NCBI GenBank assembly: GCA_013001695.1
Contig: JABDMC010000201.1
Span: 1-32,579, forward strand
From: Akkermansiaceae bacterium
Lineage (GTDB): Bacteria; Verrucomicrobiota; Verrucomicrobiia; Verrucomicrobiales; Akkermansiaceae
Length of the DNA: 32,579 nt
Direction of reading: 5' to 3'
In this document: piece after piece, positions 14,645 to 22,638 of the stretch
How positions within the stretch are numbered: position 1 is the stretch's first letter
How the letters are laid out: every line of letters begins with the position of its first letter
The notes under the pieces: model-generated
Seen by the model: the letters and a program-made list of their open reading frames with translations, nothing else
Told to the model about the DNA's origin: nothing
The model's database searches: none
Translations under genes and position numbers: made by a program

Positions 14645-14709
14645 TTGACCTCAGAGCCGTGTATGTGCAATGTATTCTCAAACCGATCCTCCGTTTTTCG
14701 GATAAACCC
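14645..14709 (+). promoter_or_regulatory. Upstream element shared by the two giant paralogues (copy 1)
   Basis: TTGACC (14645-14650), then TGTATGTGCAATGTA (14660-14674), then AAACCC directly before the ATG at 14710. The same series recurs before the second paralogue: 13 of 15 bases of the central motif match, and the distance from TTGAC to ATG is 65 against 67 bases. It is AT-rich in a GC-rich window. It may be a promoter with an unusual spacer or a binding site for a shared regulator. There is no Shine-Dalgarno. Confidence 0.55.
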
Positions 14710-17700
14710 ATGACGACCGTCCGCCTTTGCCCGATTCCGGCTCCAAAGCCCGGGGCCAACCGAGCTCCATGGAGAGGGGGATTTTCCCTGATCACCACCA
14801 TCACCATCCTGGTGCTCCTGGCCTTGGTGGCGGTCGGAATCCTGACCCTCTCGACCATCACGGTCCGGTCCGCGGGGCTCTCGAGCGCCCAGGCGGAAGC
14901 CCGGGCCAATGCCCGCCTCGCCCTCATGCTCGCCATCGGTGAACTGCAGAAACAGGTCGGCTCCGACCAGCGAATCACCGCCACCGCCGCGATTCTCGAC
15001 GACCGCCCGGCTTCGCCCGAAGTCGAGGGCGTCGCTCACCCCCACTGGACCGGCGTGTGGAATTCGTGGGCCGCCGGTTCCACCACCTTCGGGAACGACG
15101 CCCGCAGCGAGCACACCTCGATCACCCGCCCCCCGCGCGGAGGGCGCCGCGTCCCCGGAATGGCGCCGAGCTACGTCGACTCGCGCGAGGACCATTTTCG
15201 CGATTGGCTCGTTTCCCTCCCCCACCCGCGGCCCGCGGACCGCCCCGATCGCCTCGACCAGGCGCGCTCCCTTGCCCTCGAGGACGTGCGGTCCCCCGGA
15301 TCGGATGCCACCGCGGTGCGGCTCGTCGGCGAGGAAACCGTGGGCTCGCAGGACCCATCCCGGTTCGTGGGGGCCGCCCTCCTGGATGTCGATACCGATG
15401 CCCGGCCAAACACGGCCCGCAACGGCCGCTACGCGTGGTGGGTCGCCGATGAATCCACCAAGGCGCGCATTCTCGCCGACTCCTACGAGCTCGGAAATCC
15501 TCCCACCAACGCCGACCTCATTGCCCGCTCGCAAAGCTCGGCGTCGTCCGGCCACCGGTCCATCGCCCCGCTCGCCACCCTCAACGACCCCGCCAAGCTC
15601 CAGCGGGCCGTCACGCGCAGTTCCCTCGAACTCGCCGCCGGCGGCAACCGCGCGGTTCGCGAGGCCTTCCATGCCAGCACCCCCTACTCCTTCGGGGTGC
15701 TCGCGGACGTGCGCGAGGGTGGCCTCAAGCGCGATCTCAACGCCCTCCTCGAACGCCCCATCGATCCCGGCGAGAACAAGGACGACTGGATGCTCTACCG
15801 CTTCGGGCACCGGACCGACTTCGTCCCGATCCAGGATCTCGCGGCCTACTACCAGGCCTACCGCGAGGTCATCCGGTGGGACGGGCGGCAGGCCCGGAAC
15901 CCCCAAGCGAGGCGTTCCGTCCAGGTCAACAACATCGATTTCGGCACCGGACTGGCCAAGTCAGGTTCCATCGGGTTCAAGCGCCACTACAGCCACCTCT
16001 ACCGTTTCCCGGTCCCCATCAAGCTGCAGTACGTCCTGAGCTACGTCGCCAAGCCCCGCAACGTGCAATCCGGGGACAACAACAAGGACCCCTACAAGCT
16101 GCACATCGGCATCACCCCCGCGGTGACCCTCTGGAACCCGTACAACGTCCCCCTGGTCCTCAATCACGGCGCGAGCCGCTCCACCGAGATCCGCTATTTC
16201 AACCTTCCCTTCGGCATCCGCTGGTCGAAGGCCGGCCCGAAGGGAAACTACCAGTCCAACATGGCCACCTCCCTCTCGTGGATCACGAACCGCGACCATC
16301 ACCGGTGGGCCCGGGGGAACGGAACCAGCCGCATGAACAGCGACCGCTACACCGGTTTCGAGATCTTCTACGCCGGCAAGAACCCGATCGTCTTCGAACC
16401 GGGCGAGGTGAAGGTCTTCTCCCTCCGGAAGAGCAGCCAGTTCAATTCGAGTTCGAGCTACATCGACACCACCACCGTCTACCGGGAGGTGCGGGAGGTC
16501 GATCCCGGCTGGGATCCCAATACCTACATCGAGATGCCCCGCTCCGACCGCAACACCAGCGCCATGCACGTCGAGGAGGAAACCACGGGGCACGGCAACG
16601 ACACCACCCAGGGCGGCGGCGCCCTGACCTTCGGCCTTGGCGACCGCATTTCCTTCACGGTCGGGTCCGCGGACCACGCCGACCTCGCCAACGGCTGCGC
16701 GTTCCAGTTCTTCTGCCGGCAGTCGAGCGTGGTCCAGCTGATCAATGGCAACGAGGATCAGACCGGGGACGAGCGATGGTTGCGGCGCCTCTACACCTTC
16801 ATCTCCCGCCACCACCGCCGGGAGCACACCGATGCCGGCCGGGCCTTCGCCCGGGAACTCATGCTGAAGGGCTTCCCCGACGGCGAATCCGAGATCGCCT
16901 TCCCGCCGGTCAGGGGCAGCGAGATCGCCGACGGCGAACACCGGCCGTTCCTCCTGGTCAGTCTCGCCATGGCGAGCGAGGTCTCCTCGGAATTCTCCGG
17001 CGACGCCCGCGGCCGCCGCTTCGTGCAGCGCCCCTTCCTGCACGCCCCCCCGGTCCAGGCCATGGCCTTCGTGGACCGCGACGACCATGACTCCTTCTAC
17101 TTCCAGCCGTGGAACTGGTGGGTGCAGGGCATCAACTCCGTGCTGGAGGCCTCCATCCAGGTCGACGCGAACAATGTGAACTCGTTCTACGGCGGCGGAT
17201 ACACCCCCGAATTCGGGAACACCCACTGCGTCCAAATGGAAGTCCCGTTGGCGCCCCTGCACTCCATCGGGGCCCTGAGCCACGCCAAGCTCGGCGGTTA
17301 CAGCCTCGCCAACAACATGCTCAATGCGGGGTCGAGCCGGAAGAACGTGGATTACGCGGCCGTCACCGCCACCGGCGCCAACGGCCTCTTTCCCAACGTC
17401 TGCCAGGCCATCGGCAATTCCTACGCCCATCCCTACCTCGCGCCCGACCAGGTCGTGTCCATGTGGGAGCGCCACTTCAGCGCCCACACCGGCAAGCAGG
17501 CGGTCCCCATGGCGGACCACTCCTACCTCGCCAACAAGGCCCTGTGGGACGACTACTTCTTCTCGTCGATCGCTCCCCACGAGCGGACGTCGACGAAGCT
17601 CTACGAGCCCGGCGAGGACCGCACCGCCCGCGAGGTCGCCACGGATGCCTTTTTCGGCGGCGGGGAACTTCCAAATCGCCGCCTCGTCCCCCACACCGCC

Positions 17701-18609
17701 AACCTCACCGAGGAACGACTCGACGAGTACTTTGATGGCAAGGCCGTCAATCTCAAGGGCGCCGACGAAGTGGCGGCCCACCTCATGGTGAAGGGCCCCT
17801 TCAACGTGAACTCCACCTCCGTGGAGGCCTGGAAAGCGCTCCTCGCCAGCCTCAAGGACAAGGAGGTGGCCTCCCTCCACCTCGAGGATTCCTTCGCCCG
17901 CCAGTTGGCCCTCTCGCGGGCACGCAGCGACGGGGCGCCCGTCGGCAGCACCCTCCTGCCGAATGCCGACCCCGTCAAAGGCAGCCCCTCGGACCCCAGT
18001 GACGCCGCCCAGTGGTACTCATGGCGCGCGCTCTCGGACAAGCAGATCGAGAGCCTCGCCGCATCCATCGTCGACCAGGTCAAGCAGCGCGGCCCCTTCC
18101 TCTCGCTTTCGGAATTCGTCAACCGGCGGCTCGACGCCGGCAACCGCGATCTCGCCCTCCGCGGGGCCCTCCAGGCCGCCATCGACGACGAGTCCATCCC
18201 CGACGAATCCGCCATCAATGCCGGCTTCCGTGCCCCGGAACGACGCTTCACCCCGAAGGAAATCGCCCGCATGAAGCCCGCGTTCAAGGAGGCCCTCGAA
18301 GGACCGGTCGCCTACGGCAGCACCGCCTACATCGACCAGGCCGACATCCTGCGCCACCTCGGCGCCCAGCTCACGGTCCGCGGCGACACCTTCCTCATCC
18401 GCACCTACGGCGACTCCCTCGACGCCACAGGCACCGTGCGGGCCCGCGCCTGGTGCGAGGCGGTCGTGCAACGGGTCCCGGAATACCTCGACGTCTCCGC
18501 CGACCCCGCCCACGCCGCCTTCGACGACCTCACCTCGGAAGGCAACAGGTCCTTTGGGCGGCCCTTCCGCGTGGTCGGGTTCCGCTGGCTCGATCCCGAC
18601 GAGGTTTGA
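14710..18609 (+). CDS. Verru_Chthon cassette protein A-type giant pseudopilin-like protein (copy 1)
   Basis: 1299 residues. After a basic leader there is a prepilin-like site GGFSLI (cleavage expected after Gly24) and one membrane helix (about 25-48), then an alpha-helical stretch ending in ARANARLALMLAIGELQKQVG, the hallmark of this verrucomicrobial family. Position +5 after cleavage is Thr rather than the usual Glu, as in GspK/PilX-like minor pseudopilins. The rest is a large soluble region; near the C-terminus GPFNVNSTSVEAWKALL and RGPFLSLSEFVNRRL recall the GspK helix-hairpin (FDLNTA-type) region. The protein is probably anchored in the inner membrane and part of a type II secretion or pilus-like machine (inference). 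It is paralogous over its full length to the next gene. The usual short cassette partners B, C and D are absent. ATG 14710 is chosen by alignment with the paralogue. Confidence 0.85.
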   Translation: MTTVRLCPIPAPKPGANRAPWRGGFSLITTITILVLLALVAVGILTLSTITVRSAGLSSAQAEARANARLALMLAIGELQKQVGSDQRITATAAILDDRPASPEVEGVAHPHWTGVWNSWAAGSTTFGNDARSEHTSITRPPRGGRRVPGMAPSYVDSREDHFRDWLVSLPHPRPADRPDRLDQARSLALEDVRSPGSDATAVRLVGEETVGSQDPSRFVGAALLDVDTDARPNTARNGRYAWWVADESTKARILADSYELGNPPTNADLIARSQSSASSGHRSIAPLATLNDPAKLQRAVTRSSLELAAGGNRAVREAFHASTPYSFGVLADVREGGLKRDLNALLERPIDPGENKDDWMLYRFGHRTDFVPIQDLAAYYQAYREVIRWDGRQARNPQARRSVQVNNIDFGTGLAKSGSIGFKRHYSHLYRFPVPIKLQYVLSYVAKPRNVQSGDNNKDPYKLHIGITPAVTLWNPYNVPLVLNHGASRSTEIRYFNLPFGIRWSKAGPKGNYQSNMATSLSWITNRDHHRWARGNGTSRMNSDRYTGFEIFYAGKNPIVFEPGEVKVFSLRKSSQFNSSSSYIDTTTVYREVREVDPGWDPNTYIEMPRSDRNTSAMHVEEETTGHGNDTTQGGGALTFGLGDRISFTVGSADHADLANGCAFQFFCRQSSVVQLINGNEDQTGDERWLRRLYTFISRHHRREHTDAGRAFARELMLKGFPDGESEIAFPPVRGSEIADGEHRPFLLVSLAMASEVSSEFSGDARGRRFVQRPFLHAPPVQAMAFVDRDDHDSFYFQPWNWWVQGINSVLEASIQVDANNVNSFYGGGYTPEFGNTHCVQMEVPLAPLHSIGALSHAKLGGYSLANNMLNAGSSRKNVDYAAVTATGANGLFPNVCQAIGNSYAHPYLAPDQVVSMWERHFSAHTGKQAVPMADHSYLANKALWDDYFFSSIAPHERTSTKLYEPGEDRTAREVATDAFFGGGELPNRRLVPHTANLTEERLDEYFDGKAVNLKGADEVAAHLMVKGPFNVNSTSVEAWKALLASLKDKEVASLHLEDSFARQLALSRARSDGAPVGSTLLPNADPVKGSPSDPSDAAQWYSWRALSDKQIESLAASIVDQVKQRGPFLSLSEFVNRRLDAGNRDLALRGALQAAIDDESIPDESAINAGFRAPERRFTPKEIARMKPAFKEALEGPVAYGSTAYIDQADILRHLGAQLTVRGDTFLIRTYGDSLDATGTVRARAWCEAVVQRVPEYLDVSADPAHAAFDDLTSEGNRSFGRPFRVVGFRWLDPDEV

Positions 18610-18620
18610 CCCGGTTTTTC

Positions 18621-18634
18621 CCCGGTTTTCCGGG
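18621..18634 (+). other. Short hairpin after the first giant gene
   Basis: CCCGG-TTTT-CCGGG, a 5-bp stem 11 bases after the stop codon, following a direct repeat of CCGGTTTT. There is no U-tract. It could be a weak terminator or pause site that separates the two paralogues. Confidence 0.25.
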
Positions 18635-18668
18635 CCTCCAACGATCGTAGGAGGGGTCATCAATGTAT

Positions 18669-18735
18669 TTGACGCGAGGCCCATGTATTTGCATTGTAGT
18701 TCCTTGAGCTTATTCCCCGAAGGCTCGCAAAACCC
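18669..18735 (+). promoter_or_regulatory. Upstream element shared by the two giant paralogues (copy 2)
   Basis: TTGACG (18669-18674), then TGTATTTGCATTGTA (18684-18698), then AAACCC directly before the ATG at 18736. It aligns with copy 1 at 14645. In this copy ATGTATTTG also occurs 20 bases earlier (18663-18671 and 18683-18691). An 18-codon reading frame starts at ATG 18683 and its TGA overlaps the gene's ATG (ATGA). The presence of the element here suggests the second paralogue has its own promoter. Confidence 0.55.
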
Positions 18736-21700
18736 ATGAATTCCTTTCGAGATCTGTCGGTCCGCCGGCCTCTCTGCAAAGGGGCCGACCTGCGTCGCCC
18801 CGGCTTTTCGCTCATCGTCACGATCTCGATCCTCGTGCTGCTGGCGCTCGTCGCGGTCGGGCTCCTGACCCTCTCGACGATCACGGTGCGCTCCGCAAGC
18901 CTGACCAGCGCCCAGGCCGAGGCGCGGGCCAATGCCCGTCTCGCCCTCATGCTCGCCATCGGCGAACTCCAGAAACAGGTGGGGGCCGACCAGCGCATCA
19001 CCGCCAACGCCGCCATCCTCGACGACCAACCGGACTCCCCGGAGGTCCAGGGTGTGAACCACCCGCACTGGACCGGGGTTTGGAAGTCATGGGCCGCCGG
19101 CTCCCAGCAGTTCGGCAACGACTCCCTCAGCACGCACCAGACCATCGCGCGCCCCAACGCCCGCCAGATCGGCATGGCGCCCAGCTACGAGGAGAACCGC
19201 TTCGACCATTTCGTCGACTGGCTGGTCTCGCTCCCGCGTCCCGTCCCGCAGGACCTCCAGCAACGTCTCGACAGGGCTCGCTCCTTCCCGCTCGATGCCC
19301 AACTGTCCCCGGGGGACGGCGCCACCGGAGTGCGCCTCGTCGGCAGGAACACCATCGGAACCGACGACCCCGCCATGTTTGTCGGGGCGGCCCTTCTTGA
19401 CGTCGATACCGACTCCCGGCCCAACACCGAGCGCAATGGCCGCTATGCGTGGTGGGTGGCCGACGAATCCACCAAGGCGCGCGTCCTCGGCGATCAATAC
19501 GAGTTGCAGGAGACCCTCGCCAACAGCGACCTCATCGACCAGGCCCTCAGTGCCGGTTCCCCCGAGGCGTCCGCCATCGAGGGCCTCGACACCCTCCGCG
19601 ACAACCCGGCCGACCTGCAGCGCGCCGTGTCCCGGGACTCCCTGGACCTCCTCGCCGCGGACCCCTCCACCGTGGGCCGGGCCTTTCACTCCGCCACCCC
19701 CTTCTCCCTCGGGGTCATGACCGATGTCCGCGAGGGCGGGCTGAAGCGCGATCTCAATTCCCTCCTCGAGCGCCCCATCAACATCGATGACGACCGCGAC
19801 GACTGGATGCTCTACCGCTTCGGCCGCGACGATGACCGCGTCCCCATCCAGGATCTCTCCGCCTTCTACCAGACCTACCGGGAAGTCGTCCAATTCGACG
19901 GGCGCGCCGCTCGGAACCGCTACGCCGGCCGGTCCATGCAGGTCAACAACATCAATTTCGGTGGAGGATTCGGGTTCACCCGCGACTACACGAACCTCTA
20001 CCGCATGCCCTTCCCGGTGAAGTACCAGTTCCTCCTCAGCTACATCGGGGTGCCCCGCGACCGCAACAAGATCAAGGCGCCCAACACCGACCGCTACAAG
20101 CTCCATGTCGGCGTCACTCCCGCGGTCACCTTCTGGAATCCCTACAACGTGCCCCTCGTCCTCAACACCGGCGCCGAGCAAGCCACCCAGATGCGGATGT
20201 TCAACATCCCCTTCGGCATCGAATGGCAAAAGAAAAGCGCCAAGGGGCCATTCAACTCGCCCAAGCCGAATTCCCTCGTCTGGCTCACCAACCGCCTCAT
20301 GGAAGGGAGCGGAAACTCCGCTGACGACGGCTTTGGCGGTTCCGACCGGGACAATGGCATCACCCTTTACCTCGGCGGTGACAAGAACCACGTCATCTTC
20401 CAGCCCGGCGAGGTCCGGACCTTCTCGCTCCGCCAGACCGGCACCCGCACCGGCTACGAGGGCATCCTCAATTCCAACCGCTATCGCCCCGAGCTCGAGG
20501 CCGATCCCGGCTGGGATCCCAGCTTCTTCCTCGTGATGCCCCGTTCCGAGCGGGACAACGACACCAAGCACGTCGAGAAGGAGTTCCCGGGCGGCTCCGG
20601 GTCCAAGAAGGACGGCGGGGCCCTCACCTTCAATCCCAACGACGAAATCGGCATCACGATTCACGCCGCCTCGACCCTCGACATGGCCAATGGCGCCGCC
20701 TTCCACATCTTCCACAGGCAATCGAGCACCATGTACCCGGGCCTCGACGACAACATCGACCGCTCCCACATGCGCCGCCAGTACCAGTTCACCTCCCGCC
20801 TGCACTCCGAGCAGCAGAAGGCCAAGGACAACGGTTTCAACAAGGCCCTCATGCAACAGGCCTTCCCGGAAGGGTCCGACCGCATCGTCCTCGACCCCGT
20901 GCGGGGCAACGAACTCATCGGCGGCGACCACCGGCCGTTCATGCTGGTGAGCCTCACGGCGGGGTGCGAGATCTCGCAGGCCACCGCCGGGGATTTCCGC
21001 GGGCGCCGCTTTGTCTCCCGCCCCTTCCTGCACTCCACCCCGGCGCAGTCCGCGGTCTTTGTCGATCGCGAGGACAAGGACTCCTTTTACCACCACGGGT
21101 GGAATTGGTGGGTGCAGGACATCAACTCCGTCCTCGAAGCCTCGGTGCAGGTCGCCCCCAACAACCGCAGCGGTTACTGGGGCGGCGGCTATACCCCGGA
21201 GTTCGGCTCCACCAACGTCGTCCAGCAGGAGATTCCCCTCACCCCCGTCCACTCCATCGCCGCCCTCAGTCACGCCCAGCTCAGCGGCTACAGCCTGTCC
21301 GGAAAGATCCTCGGATACGGGGCGGGAGCCCGGACGAGCCGGAGCGTGACCGGAAATATCGGAAGCTACACCGACAACCCGTTCGCCAACACCACCGCCA
21401 CCGGGGCCAACGGGCTCTTCCCCCGCACCAGCCAGGCGATCGGAAATTCCTACGCCCACCCCTACCTGAAACCCGAAGCGGCCTTCACCGAGTGGACCCG
21501 CCACTTCAATGTCACCGACGGCCCCAAGAAGGTCCCCTTCGTCGATCACTCCTACCTCGCCAACAAGGCCCTCTGGGATGAGTTCTTCTTCTCCTCGATC
21601 GCTCCGCGCTCGACCAAGCTGTTCGCCGATCAGTTCACGGCGAAAGAGGTGGCCACCCGCTTCTTCTTCGAGGAAGAGCGCCTCCCGAACCGCCGCTTCG

Positions 21701-22638
21701 TCCCGCATGCCGACGGACTCGACGAAGAGGACCTCGCCGCCTACTTCCCGCGCAACCGCGCCAGCCTCCGGGCCGCGGATGAATTGGCCGCCTACCTCAT
21801 GGTGGAGGGGCCCTTCAACGTCAATTCGACCTCGGTGGAGGCATGGAAGGCCCTCTTCTCGAGCCTCCGTGAACGCGACGTCCCGGTCATCGGCACCAAT
21901 GAAAACTCCAACCGGCTCCCTCGCGGCGTTCCGATCAAGTCCGAGCCGATGCCCGACGGCGTCCCGCTGGGCTCCACTTCGGTGGCCAACGGACCGGGCT
22001 ACACCGGTTCCAGTCCCGAGCCAAGCGATCCCGACCAGTGGTACTGCTGGCGCCGTCTCACGACCGGGGAAATCGACGCCCTCGCCGAAGCCATGGTCCG
22101 GCAGGTGAAGCTCCGCGGACCGTTCCTCTCGCTGTCCGAGTTCGTGAACCGCCGCCTCGACCGTGACAACACCGACCTCGCCCTGAAAGGGGCCCTCCAG
22201 GCCGCCATCGATGACGAGACCATCGACAACGATGTCGCCATCAACGCCGGCTTCCGCGAATCCGAACGCCGGTTCTCGCCCGAAGAAATCCGCGAACTCA
22301 AGGAGGTCCAATTCGCCGAGGCTATCGAGGGCCCGGTCGCCTACGGATCCGCCGCTTACGTCGACCAGGCCGACATCCTGCGCAGCTTCGGCGGTCAACT
22401 CACCCCCCGCGGGGACACGTTCCTCGTGCGCACCTACGGCGACTCCATCGACGCCGCGGGAAACGTCCGGGCCCGCGCGTGGTGCGAGGCCGTCGTGCAG
22501 CGGGTCCCCGAGTACCTCGACCCGGCCGCCGACAAGGCCCATCTCGCCTACGACGATCTCGACGCCGAGGCCAACAAGTTGTTCGGCCGGCCATTCCGGA
22601 TCGTCAGCTTCCGCTGGCTTGACAGTGACGAAGTGTAG
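18736..22638 (+). CDS. Verru_Chthon cassette protein A-type giant pseudopilin-like protein (copy 2)
   Basis: 1300 residues with the same architecture as its upstream neighbour: basic leader, prepilin-like PGFSLIV (cleavage expected after Gly23, Val at +5 instead of Glu), one membrane helix, ARANARLALMLAIGELQKQVG, a long soluble body, GPFNVNSTSVEAWKALF and RGPFLSLSEFVNRRLD, and a matching C-terminus (FRWLDSDEV against FRWLDPDEV). Many blocks are identical between the two, including SMQVNNI/SVQVNNI, HSYLANKALWD and GANGLFP; the middle and a loop near residue 860 differ in length and sequence. It is therefore an old tandem duplication with divergence rather than a recent copy. It probably works in the same envelope machine, with a different partner or expression timing (inference). 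An exported 234-residue protein follows after 16 bases. Confidence 0.85.
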   Translation: MNSFRDLSVRRPLCKGADLRRPGFSLIVTISILVLLALVAVGLLTLSTITVRSASLTSAQAEARANARLALMLAIGELQKQVGADQRITANAAILDDQPDSPEVQGVNHPHWTGVWKSWAAGSQQFGNDSLSTHQTIARPNARQIGMAPSYEENRFDHFVDWLVSLPRPVPQDLQQRLDRARSFPLDAQLSPGDGATGVRLVGRNTIGTDDPAMFVGAALLDVDTDSRPNTERNGRYAWWVADESTKARVLGDQYELQETLANSDLIDQALSAGSPEASAIEGLDTLRDNPADLQRAVSRDSLDLLAADPSTVGRAFHSATPFSLGVMTDVREGGLKRDLNSLLERPINIDDDRDDWMLYRFGRDDDRVPIQDLSAFYQTYREVVQFDGRAARNRYAGRSMQVNNINFGGGFGFTRDYTNLYRMPFPVKYQFLLSYIGVPRDRNKIKAPNTDRYKLHVGVTPAVTFWNPYNVPLVLNTGAEQATQMRMFNIPFGIEWQKKSAKGPFNSPKPNSLVWLTNRLMEGSGNSADDGFGGSDRDNGITLYLGGDKNHVIFQPGEVRTFSLRQTGTRTGYEGILNSNRYRPELEADPGWDPSFFLVMPRSERDNDTKHVEKEFPGGSGSKKDGGALTFNPNDEIGITIHAASTLDMANGAAFHIFHRQSSTMYPGLDDNIDRSHMRRQYQFTSRLHSEQQKAKDNGFNKALMQQAFPEGSDRIVLDPVRGNELIGGDHRPFMLVSLTAGCEISQATAGDFRGRRFVSRPFLHSTPAQSAVFVDREDKDSFYHHGWNWWVQDINSVLEASVQVAPNNRSGYWGGGYTPEFGSTNVVQQEIPLTPVHSIAALSHAQLSGYSLSGKILGYGAGARTSRSVTGNIGSYTDNPFANTTATGANGLFPRTSQAIGNSYAHPYLKPEAAFTEWTRHFNVTDGPKKVPFVDHSYLANKALWDEFFFSSIAPRSTKLFADQFTAKEVATRFFFEEERLPNRRFVPHADGLDEEDLAAYFPRNRASLRAADELAAYLMVEGPFNVNSTSVEAWKALFSSLRERDVPVIGTNENSNRLPRGVPIKSEPMPDGVPLGSTSVANGPGYTGSSPEPSDPDQWYCWRRLTTGEIDALAEAMVRQVKLRGPFLSLSEFVNRRLDRDNTDLALKGALQAAIDDETIDNDVAINAGFRESERRFSPEEIRELKEVQFAEAIEGPVAYGSAAYVDQADILRSFGGQLTPRGDTFLVRTYGDSIDAAGNVRARAWCEAVVQRVPEYLDPAADKAHLAYDDLDAEANKLFGRPFRIVSFRWLDSDEV

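Follow-up and report, generated by a model that had tools for sequence, protein, structure and literature searches.

Giant GspK-like, prepilin-like proteins in an Akkermansiaceae genome belong to a multicopy family linked to a putatively exported partner

We analyzed a 32,579-nucleotide stretch of DNA (the window) from an Akkermansiaceae genome of 5.13 Mb in 399 contigs. The window encodes two giant tandem paralogues, A1 and A2, which are 58% identical, and a small gene, S, whose start lies 16 nt from the A2 stop codon (Table 1). An in-frame GTG at 14659, upstream of the A1 ATG, adjoins an operator-like site. Also upstream of A1 are ORFs that we named from their sequences as sulfatase-like, DUF1501-like, and cytochrome-type, together with genes for a MocA-type dehydrogenase and a NIPSNAP protein. 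The contig starts at window position 1 (14.7 kb left of A1) and was read rightwards to about 51.9 kb. An earlier note on this DNA had reported that no GFTLIE-type prepilin-like genes (B, C, and D of the Verru_Chthon cassette) lie beside the pair, and indeed no such short ORF was found in the window, nor is one listed within the next 19.9 kb on the right. The same contig, 12 to 13 kb past the right end of the window, encodes an 841-aa protein with a secretin domain (L183:12591-15116), with no pilin genes recognized nearby.

Table 1. Genes and predicted operator-like sites in the window and elsewhere in the source genome
Feature	Location	Strand	Remarks
A1, giant prepilin-like (GspK-like) protein, 1299 aa	14710-18609	+	ATG start; predicted cleavage site at Gly24, Thr at +5
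A2, giant prepilin-like (GspK-like) protein, 1300 aa	18736-22638	+	predicted cleavage site at Gly23, Val at +5
S, putatively exported partner, 234 aa	22655-23359	+	signal peptide, then two predicted Ig-like beta domains
Operator-like site TGTATGTGCAATGTA	14660-14674	+	36 nt 5′ of A1 start codon
Operator-like site TGTATTTGCATTGTA	18684-18698	+	38 nt 5′ of A2 start codon
One-mismatch site	contig C255		before an A gene
One-mismatch site TGTAAATACAATGTG	contig C66 (L041)		upstream of genuine Verru_Chthon_A cassette
One-mismatch site	contig C89 (L216:6801-9172)		before GFTLVEV-GFTLMES-GFTLAEL three-gene pilin operon
One-mismatch site	contig C399		before GMTLIEL pilin gene

The N-termini of A1 and A2 show the features of a class III signal, namely, a basic leader followed by a Gly|Phe-Ser-Leu-Ile cleavage site and then by a hydrophobic helix; the residues following the predicted cleavage point are F-S-L-I-T in A1 and F-S-L-I-V in A2. 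The Pfam N_methyl model itself gave no score. The earlier note had described a tandem pair of ~1300-residue proteins with a prepilin-like cleavage site and Thr or Val at position +5, and both the coordinates and the residues proved right. Its remark that these prepilin-like proteins lack Glu5 can be widened; Glu is present at this position in 0 of 76 aligned A homologues and in 0 of 12 paralogues with a readable N-terminus, which marks its absence, as far as alignments can tell, as a trait of the whole A family. The FNVNSTSVEAW block (GPFNVNSTSVEAWKAL) that had been noticed in the C-termini was found in both proteins, and GPFNVNSTSVEAW lies near the C-terminus of A1 and A2 alike.

The pair is part of a much larger set. 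Together with 10 near-complete copies, a copy that runs off a contig edge (C297), and a fragment (C112), A1 and A2 bring the A family to 13 or 14 members in the source genome, and the duplicated pair that the earlier note took as the unit therefore loses that status. At least one copy was found in 104 of the 388 Verrucomicrobiota genomes sampled, with named relatives that include Roseibacillus, Haloferula, Luteolibacter, and Akkermansia, and six closed or nearly closed genomes hold about 15, 12, 12, 4, 3, and 2 copies (counting separate places). Neither Pfam nor NCBIfam has a model for this family; a Pfam search of A gave no consistent match, and a PDB sequence search with the A profile gave no credible one. 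In three loci (L061, L062, and L098), the A gene is split into two overlapping or adjacent frames, i.e., frameshifts that may represent real decay or assembly errors. In gut Akkermansia-like loci (L143 and L144), two divergent A genes occupy a conserved place by pyrG-like and sodium-symporter-like genes, and one of them is followed by a secreted protein of ~300 aa that the S profile does not recognize.

The earlier note had described the pair as being without its usual partners. This is correct for B, C, and D, but the A family has a usual partner of its own, which is S. In named loci from other genomes, S comes next after 75 of 92 A genes, within about 0 to 130 nt (mostly 0 to 50 nt). S homologues likewise follow most A copies of the source genome at a spacing of -1 to +31 nt, and nearly every copy with a readable flank has S beside it. 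The only reversed order seen is on C48 (L022:4823-5650), where S precedes A with a 4-nt overlap; no S was recognized at the C75 copy or in the gut Akkermansia loci examined. A and S co-diverge: their distances correlate at r = 0.92 over 59 pairs (0 of 2000 permutations). Within the source genome, the nine pairs give r = 0.90 (0 of 5000 permutations), a value that leans on the closest pairs, since the rank correlation is only 0.36. S, like A, is covered by no dedicated Pfam or NCBIfam model; a Pfam search with S turned up nothing consistent, and its profile found no credible PDB sequence. Its AlphaFold model (pLDDT, 90.6) is all-beta and in Foldseek comes closest to the tandem Ig-like extracellular domains of PepT1/PepT2 (E 3e-7), which we read as a resemblance of predicted folds and no more. 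At L116, L123, and L128, where A has no S, the next gene encodes a large secreted protein that looks like an autotransporter-repeat protein.

An EM search of 87 A upstream regions yielded GTATTTACATTGTAAATACA, a nearly perfect inverted repeat (the palindromic site is also written TGTATTTACATTGTAAATACA), with a score of 251.7 versus 64 to 75 on five shuffled sets. Scores above 12 bits occur in 52% of A upstream regions versus 1.3% of 158 other genes in the same loci. The source genome was searched with the pattern TGTANNTRCANTGTA rather than with a weight matrix. Its only two exact matches in 5.13 Mb are those before A1 and A2, which bears out the suggestion of the earlier note that each gene has its own promoter element, and its four one-mismatch matches all precede prepilin-like genes. 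Assuming a G+C content of 68%, we estimate a chance expectation of about 0.1 for exact sites and about 4 for sites with one mismatch. The sites at 0 to 2 mismatches number 32 versus 97 for a reversed-pattern control; as this total is not above the control, the case rests on the location of the best six, all of which precede prepilin-like genes. Three of these six lie outside the A family and serve as an independent check because the motif was derived without them. Not all genomes with A genes have the site; in the closed relative G320, the 19-nt palindrome was not found at up to 2 mismatches, and no site precedes its A gene. In our best reading, A1 and A2 would be coregulated with other prepilin genes via a common site. 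On C89, a fourth (GspK/A-like) gene would be expected after the three pilin-like genes, at the very point where the contig stops.

GspK is the tip subunit of the type II secretion system (T2SS), and it is the next-best N-terminal match of the A family after Verru_Chthon_A; 10 of 13 paralogues match its equivalog model at E ≤ 0.1 (best, 4.5e-5), and an hhalign comparison of A with GspK over the N-terminus gives an E of 6e-4. The GspK model (NF037980) reaches 14.4 bits versus a cut-off of 130. PF03934, the T2SSK domain, matched no A gene and nothing elsewhere in the source genome, and a plasmid collection searched for GspK relatives contained none. The C-terminal block had been likened to a region of GspK, a link that we rejected; the profile-profile comparison (hhalign) of the A C-terminus with GspK was not significant (E 0.14). 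As for structure, AlphaFold (AF2) was run on the mature form of the homologue L094 (1200 aa, 51% identical to A2) together with 75 relatives, giving a model with a pLDDT of 88.9 and a pTM of 0.90. In this model, an N-terminal helix (residues 2-60, 59 residues) is followed by a large mixed insertion and by closing strands at 1129-1139, 1145-1161, and 1185-1195. Foldseek ranked E. coli GspK (3ci0_K) first among 350,542 PDB chains, at an E of 0.14, which is not significant, and XcpX (5vtm_X) 19th, with nothing at E ≤ 0.001. We take the long pilin helix predicted for this homologue and the ranks of the two GspK-type chains to favor a GspK-type layout without proving one.

We consider A1-A2-S to be one copy of a two-component A-S module, in which a giant GspK-like tip or minor pilin acts with an exported partner; we would put the probability of this at roughly one half. 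The prepilin N-terminus would place A in the inner membrane, and after cleavage by prepilin peptidase, A would join a type IV filament (a T2SS pseudopilus or a type IV-like pilus) as its tip or as a minor subunit, initiating or capping it with the ~900-residue insertion exposed. S would be exported through Sec and would work with, and perhaps contact, the A protein encoded in the same operon. Depending on the A-S module, one filament machine may then differ in what it binds or secretes, with polysaccharides the probable targets, and many of the modules may answer to a regulator common to other prepilin genes of the genome. The source genome encodes the elements of such a machine (T2SS/T4P ATPases, GspF, secretins, and prepilin peptidase), and C272 carries a T2SS-like cluster with a secretin, GspE, and GspF. 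As to the co-occurrence of A with type II secretion genes, all 8 of the 388 genomes without GspF are also without A, which is consistent but weak, as A is absent from most genomes anyway. One further, and distinctly tentative, possibility is that the A-S modules of a genome, a dozen or more in number, equip one shared type IV machine with giant, exchangeable tips, each specific for a substrate, and with their dedicated exported partners, many of the modules being under a common operator with pilin operons. A1 and A2 might in that case cap a filament interchangeably.

Several other roles for A deserve consideration. The earlier note had matched A1 and A2 to the Verru_Chthon cassette A type, which is accurate for the N-terminal ~60 to 75 residues but not for family membership. 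TIGR02600 (Verru_Chthon_A) scores 16.1 and 15.1 bits on A1 and A2, over the first 60 residues only, versus a cut-off of 332.3; N-terminal profile matches to it extend to 12 of 13 A paralogues, and hhalign relates the two families (E 6e-7) over the N-terminal ~70 residues only. Moreover, contigs C66 and C200 of the source genome encode two genuine Verru_Chthon_A proteins (991 and 850 bits), and the C66 gene (L041:1883-7530) heads a cassette with GFSLMEV and GFTLTEM pilins. We therefore rejected A1 and A2 as members. It is very improbable that they are the A subunits of an ordinary cassette whose B, C, and D genes lie elsewhere; the similar length and N-terminus and the operator-like site held in common with the C66 cassette would fit, but no homology was detected past the N-terminus, and the constant neighbor is S, with no B, C, or D genes beside A1 and A2 or the paralogues read. 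B, C, and D products might nonetheless assemble with A in trans. The name Verru_Chthon was not found in the literature searched.

Alternatively, A may be a substrate receptor of the T2SS. As a gate or tip of the GspK kind, it would choose particular enzymes for export, or assist in the display of neighboring autotransporter-like repeat proteins, and would not be a tip that binds extracellular ligands. The position of GspK at the T2SS tip, the cluster on C272, and the large secreted repeat proteins that follow some S-less A genes (PATR repeats are found in 5 of 99 neighbors) are in line with such a role, but S is the only constant neighbor, enzymes of no one family recur beside A with any regularity, and none of the loci read shows A within a gsp cluster; we think it unlikely. 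We are similarly doubtful that A is a prepilin-like inner-membrane protein that never polymerizes and acts with S as a tethered periplasmic scaffold or sensor. The huge insertion could hinder filament packing, and the placement of A in a filament is itself predicted, but the cleavage site and N-terminal helix are conserved across the family, and the operator-like site is common to A and pilin operons. Less likely still is that A tips serve specifically the Akkermansia-type MUL2 pilus (Amuc_1099-1102). The source genome does have a MUL2 locus, with homologues of Amuc_1100 (E 6e-19) and Amuc_1102 (E 2e-31); this MUL2-type locus, on C386 (L184:6848-13442 and L219:2515-3126), also encodes a PilM-like protein and a secretin. 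Akkermansiaceae have been proposed to attach to fucose-rich glycans via the MUL2 pilus with unspecified substrate-specific proteins (PMC13174399). Against this reading, an Amuc_1102 homologue is found in about 40 of 104 A-positive and about 71 of 284 A-negative genomes (lists compared by eye). Across the 388 genomes, A does not track Amuc_1102 beyond the family and so is not tied to MUL2; an obligate link was rejected given the many A-positive genomes with no detectable Amuc_1102 homologue.

The neighbors of A-S modules include sulfatases, GH29, GH95, GH81, SASA esterases, and ROK kinases, as well as GFO/IDH/MocA dehydrogenases and PATR repeat proteins. Sulfatases account for 5 of 99 A neighbors, and they are already common in marine Akkermansiaceae (1.5 to 4.1% of genes; PMC13174399), so this polysaccharide context is suggestive only. 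According to a review (PMC12418764, citing Davey et al. 2023), mucin accumulation in Akkermansia needs pilus and periplasmic-complex genes. In an alginate-degrading relative, a pseudopilin was raised on alginate, and 67 homologues of a PulG-like one were reported (PMC13274419); by its description, that family differs from A.

Among known systems, GspK and XcpX resemble A in the absence of Glu5, an N-x-N motif block, and, in the predicted fold, the N-terminal helix and C-terminal strands. A differs in being four times longer, in its lack of a PF03934 match, and in lying outside a gspHIJK operon, and the best-ranked fold match, to GspK, is not significant. Verru_Chthon_A (TIGR02600) shares with A a length of about 1300 aa, a prepilin-like N-terminus, and, in the source genome, the operator-like site, whereas its partners are those of the cassette and not S. 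The MUL2 pilus, a proposed glycan-attachment filament present in the same genome, is built of other proteins. For the binding and uptake of large sulfated and fucose-rich glycans by Verrucomicrobiota, recent work proposes a type IV-like pilus with no substrate-specific parts; multicopy, partner-linked, and jointly regulated giant tip-like pilins are a candidate for these parts. An analogy of working, with no relation claimed, may be drawn with SusC/SusD of Bacteroidota, which likewise occur as numerous co-diverging gene pairs in a genome, some of them close to genes for glycan degradation, although SusC/SusD center on a TonB-dependent transporter and A is a putative filament protein. Exchangeable tips, if real, would play a part like that of SusCD pairs in the capture of complex glycans, but on a filament.
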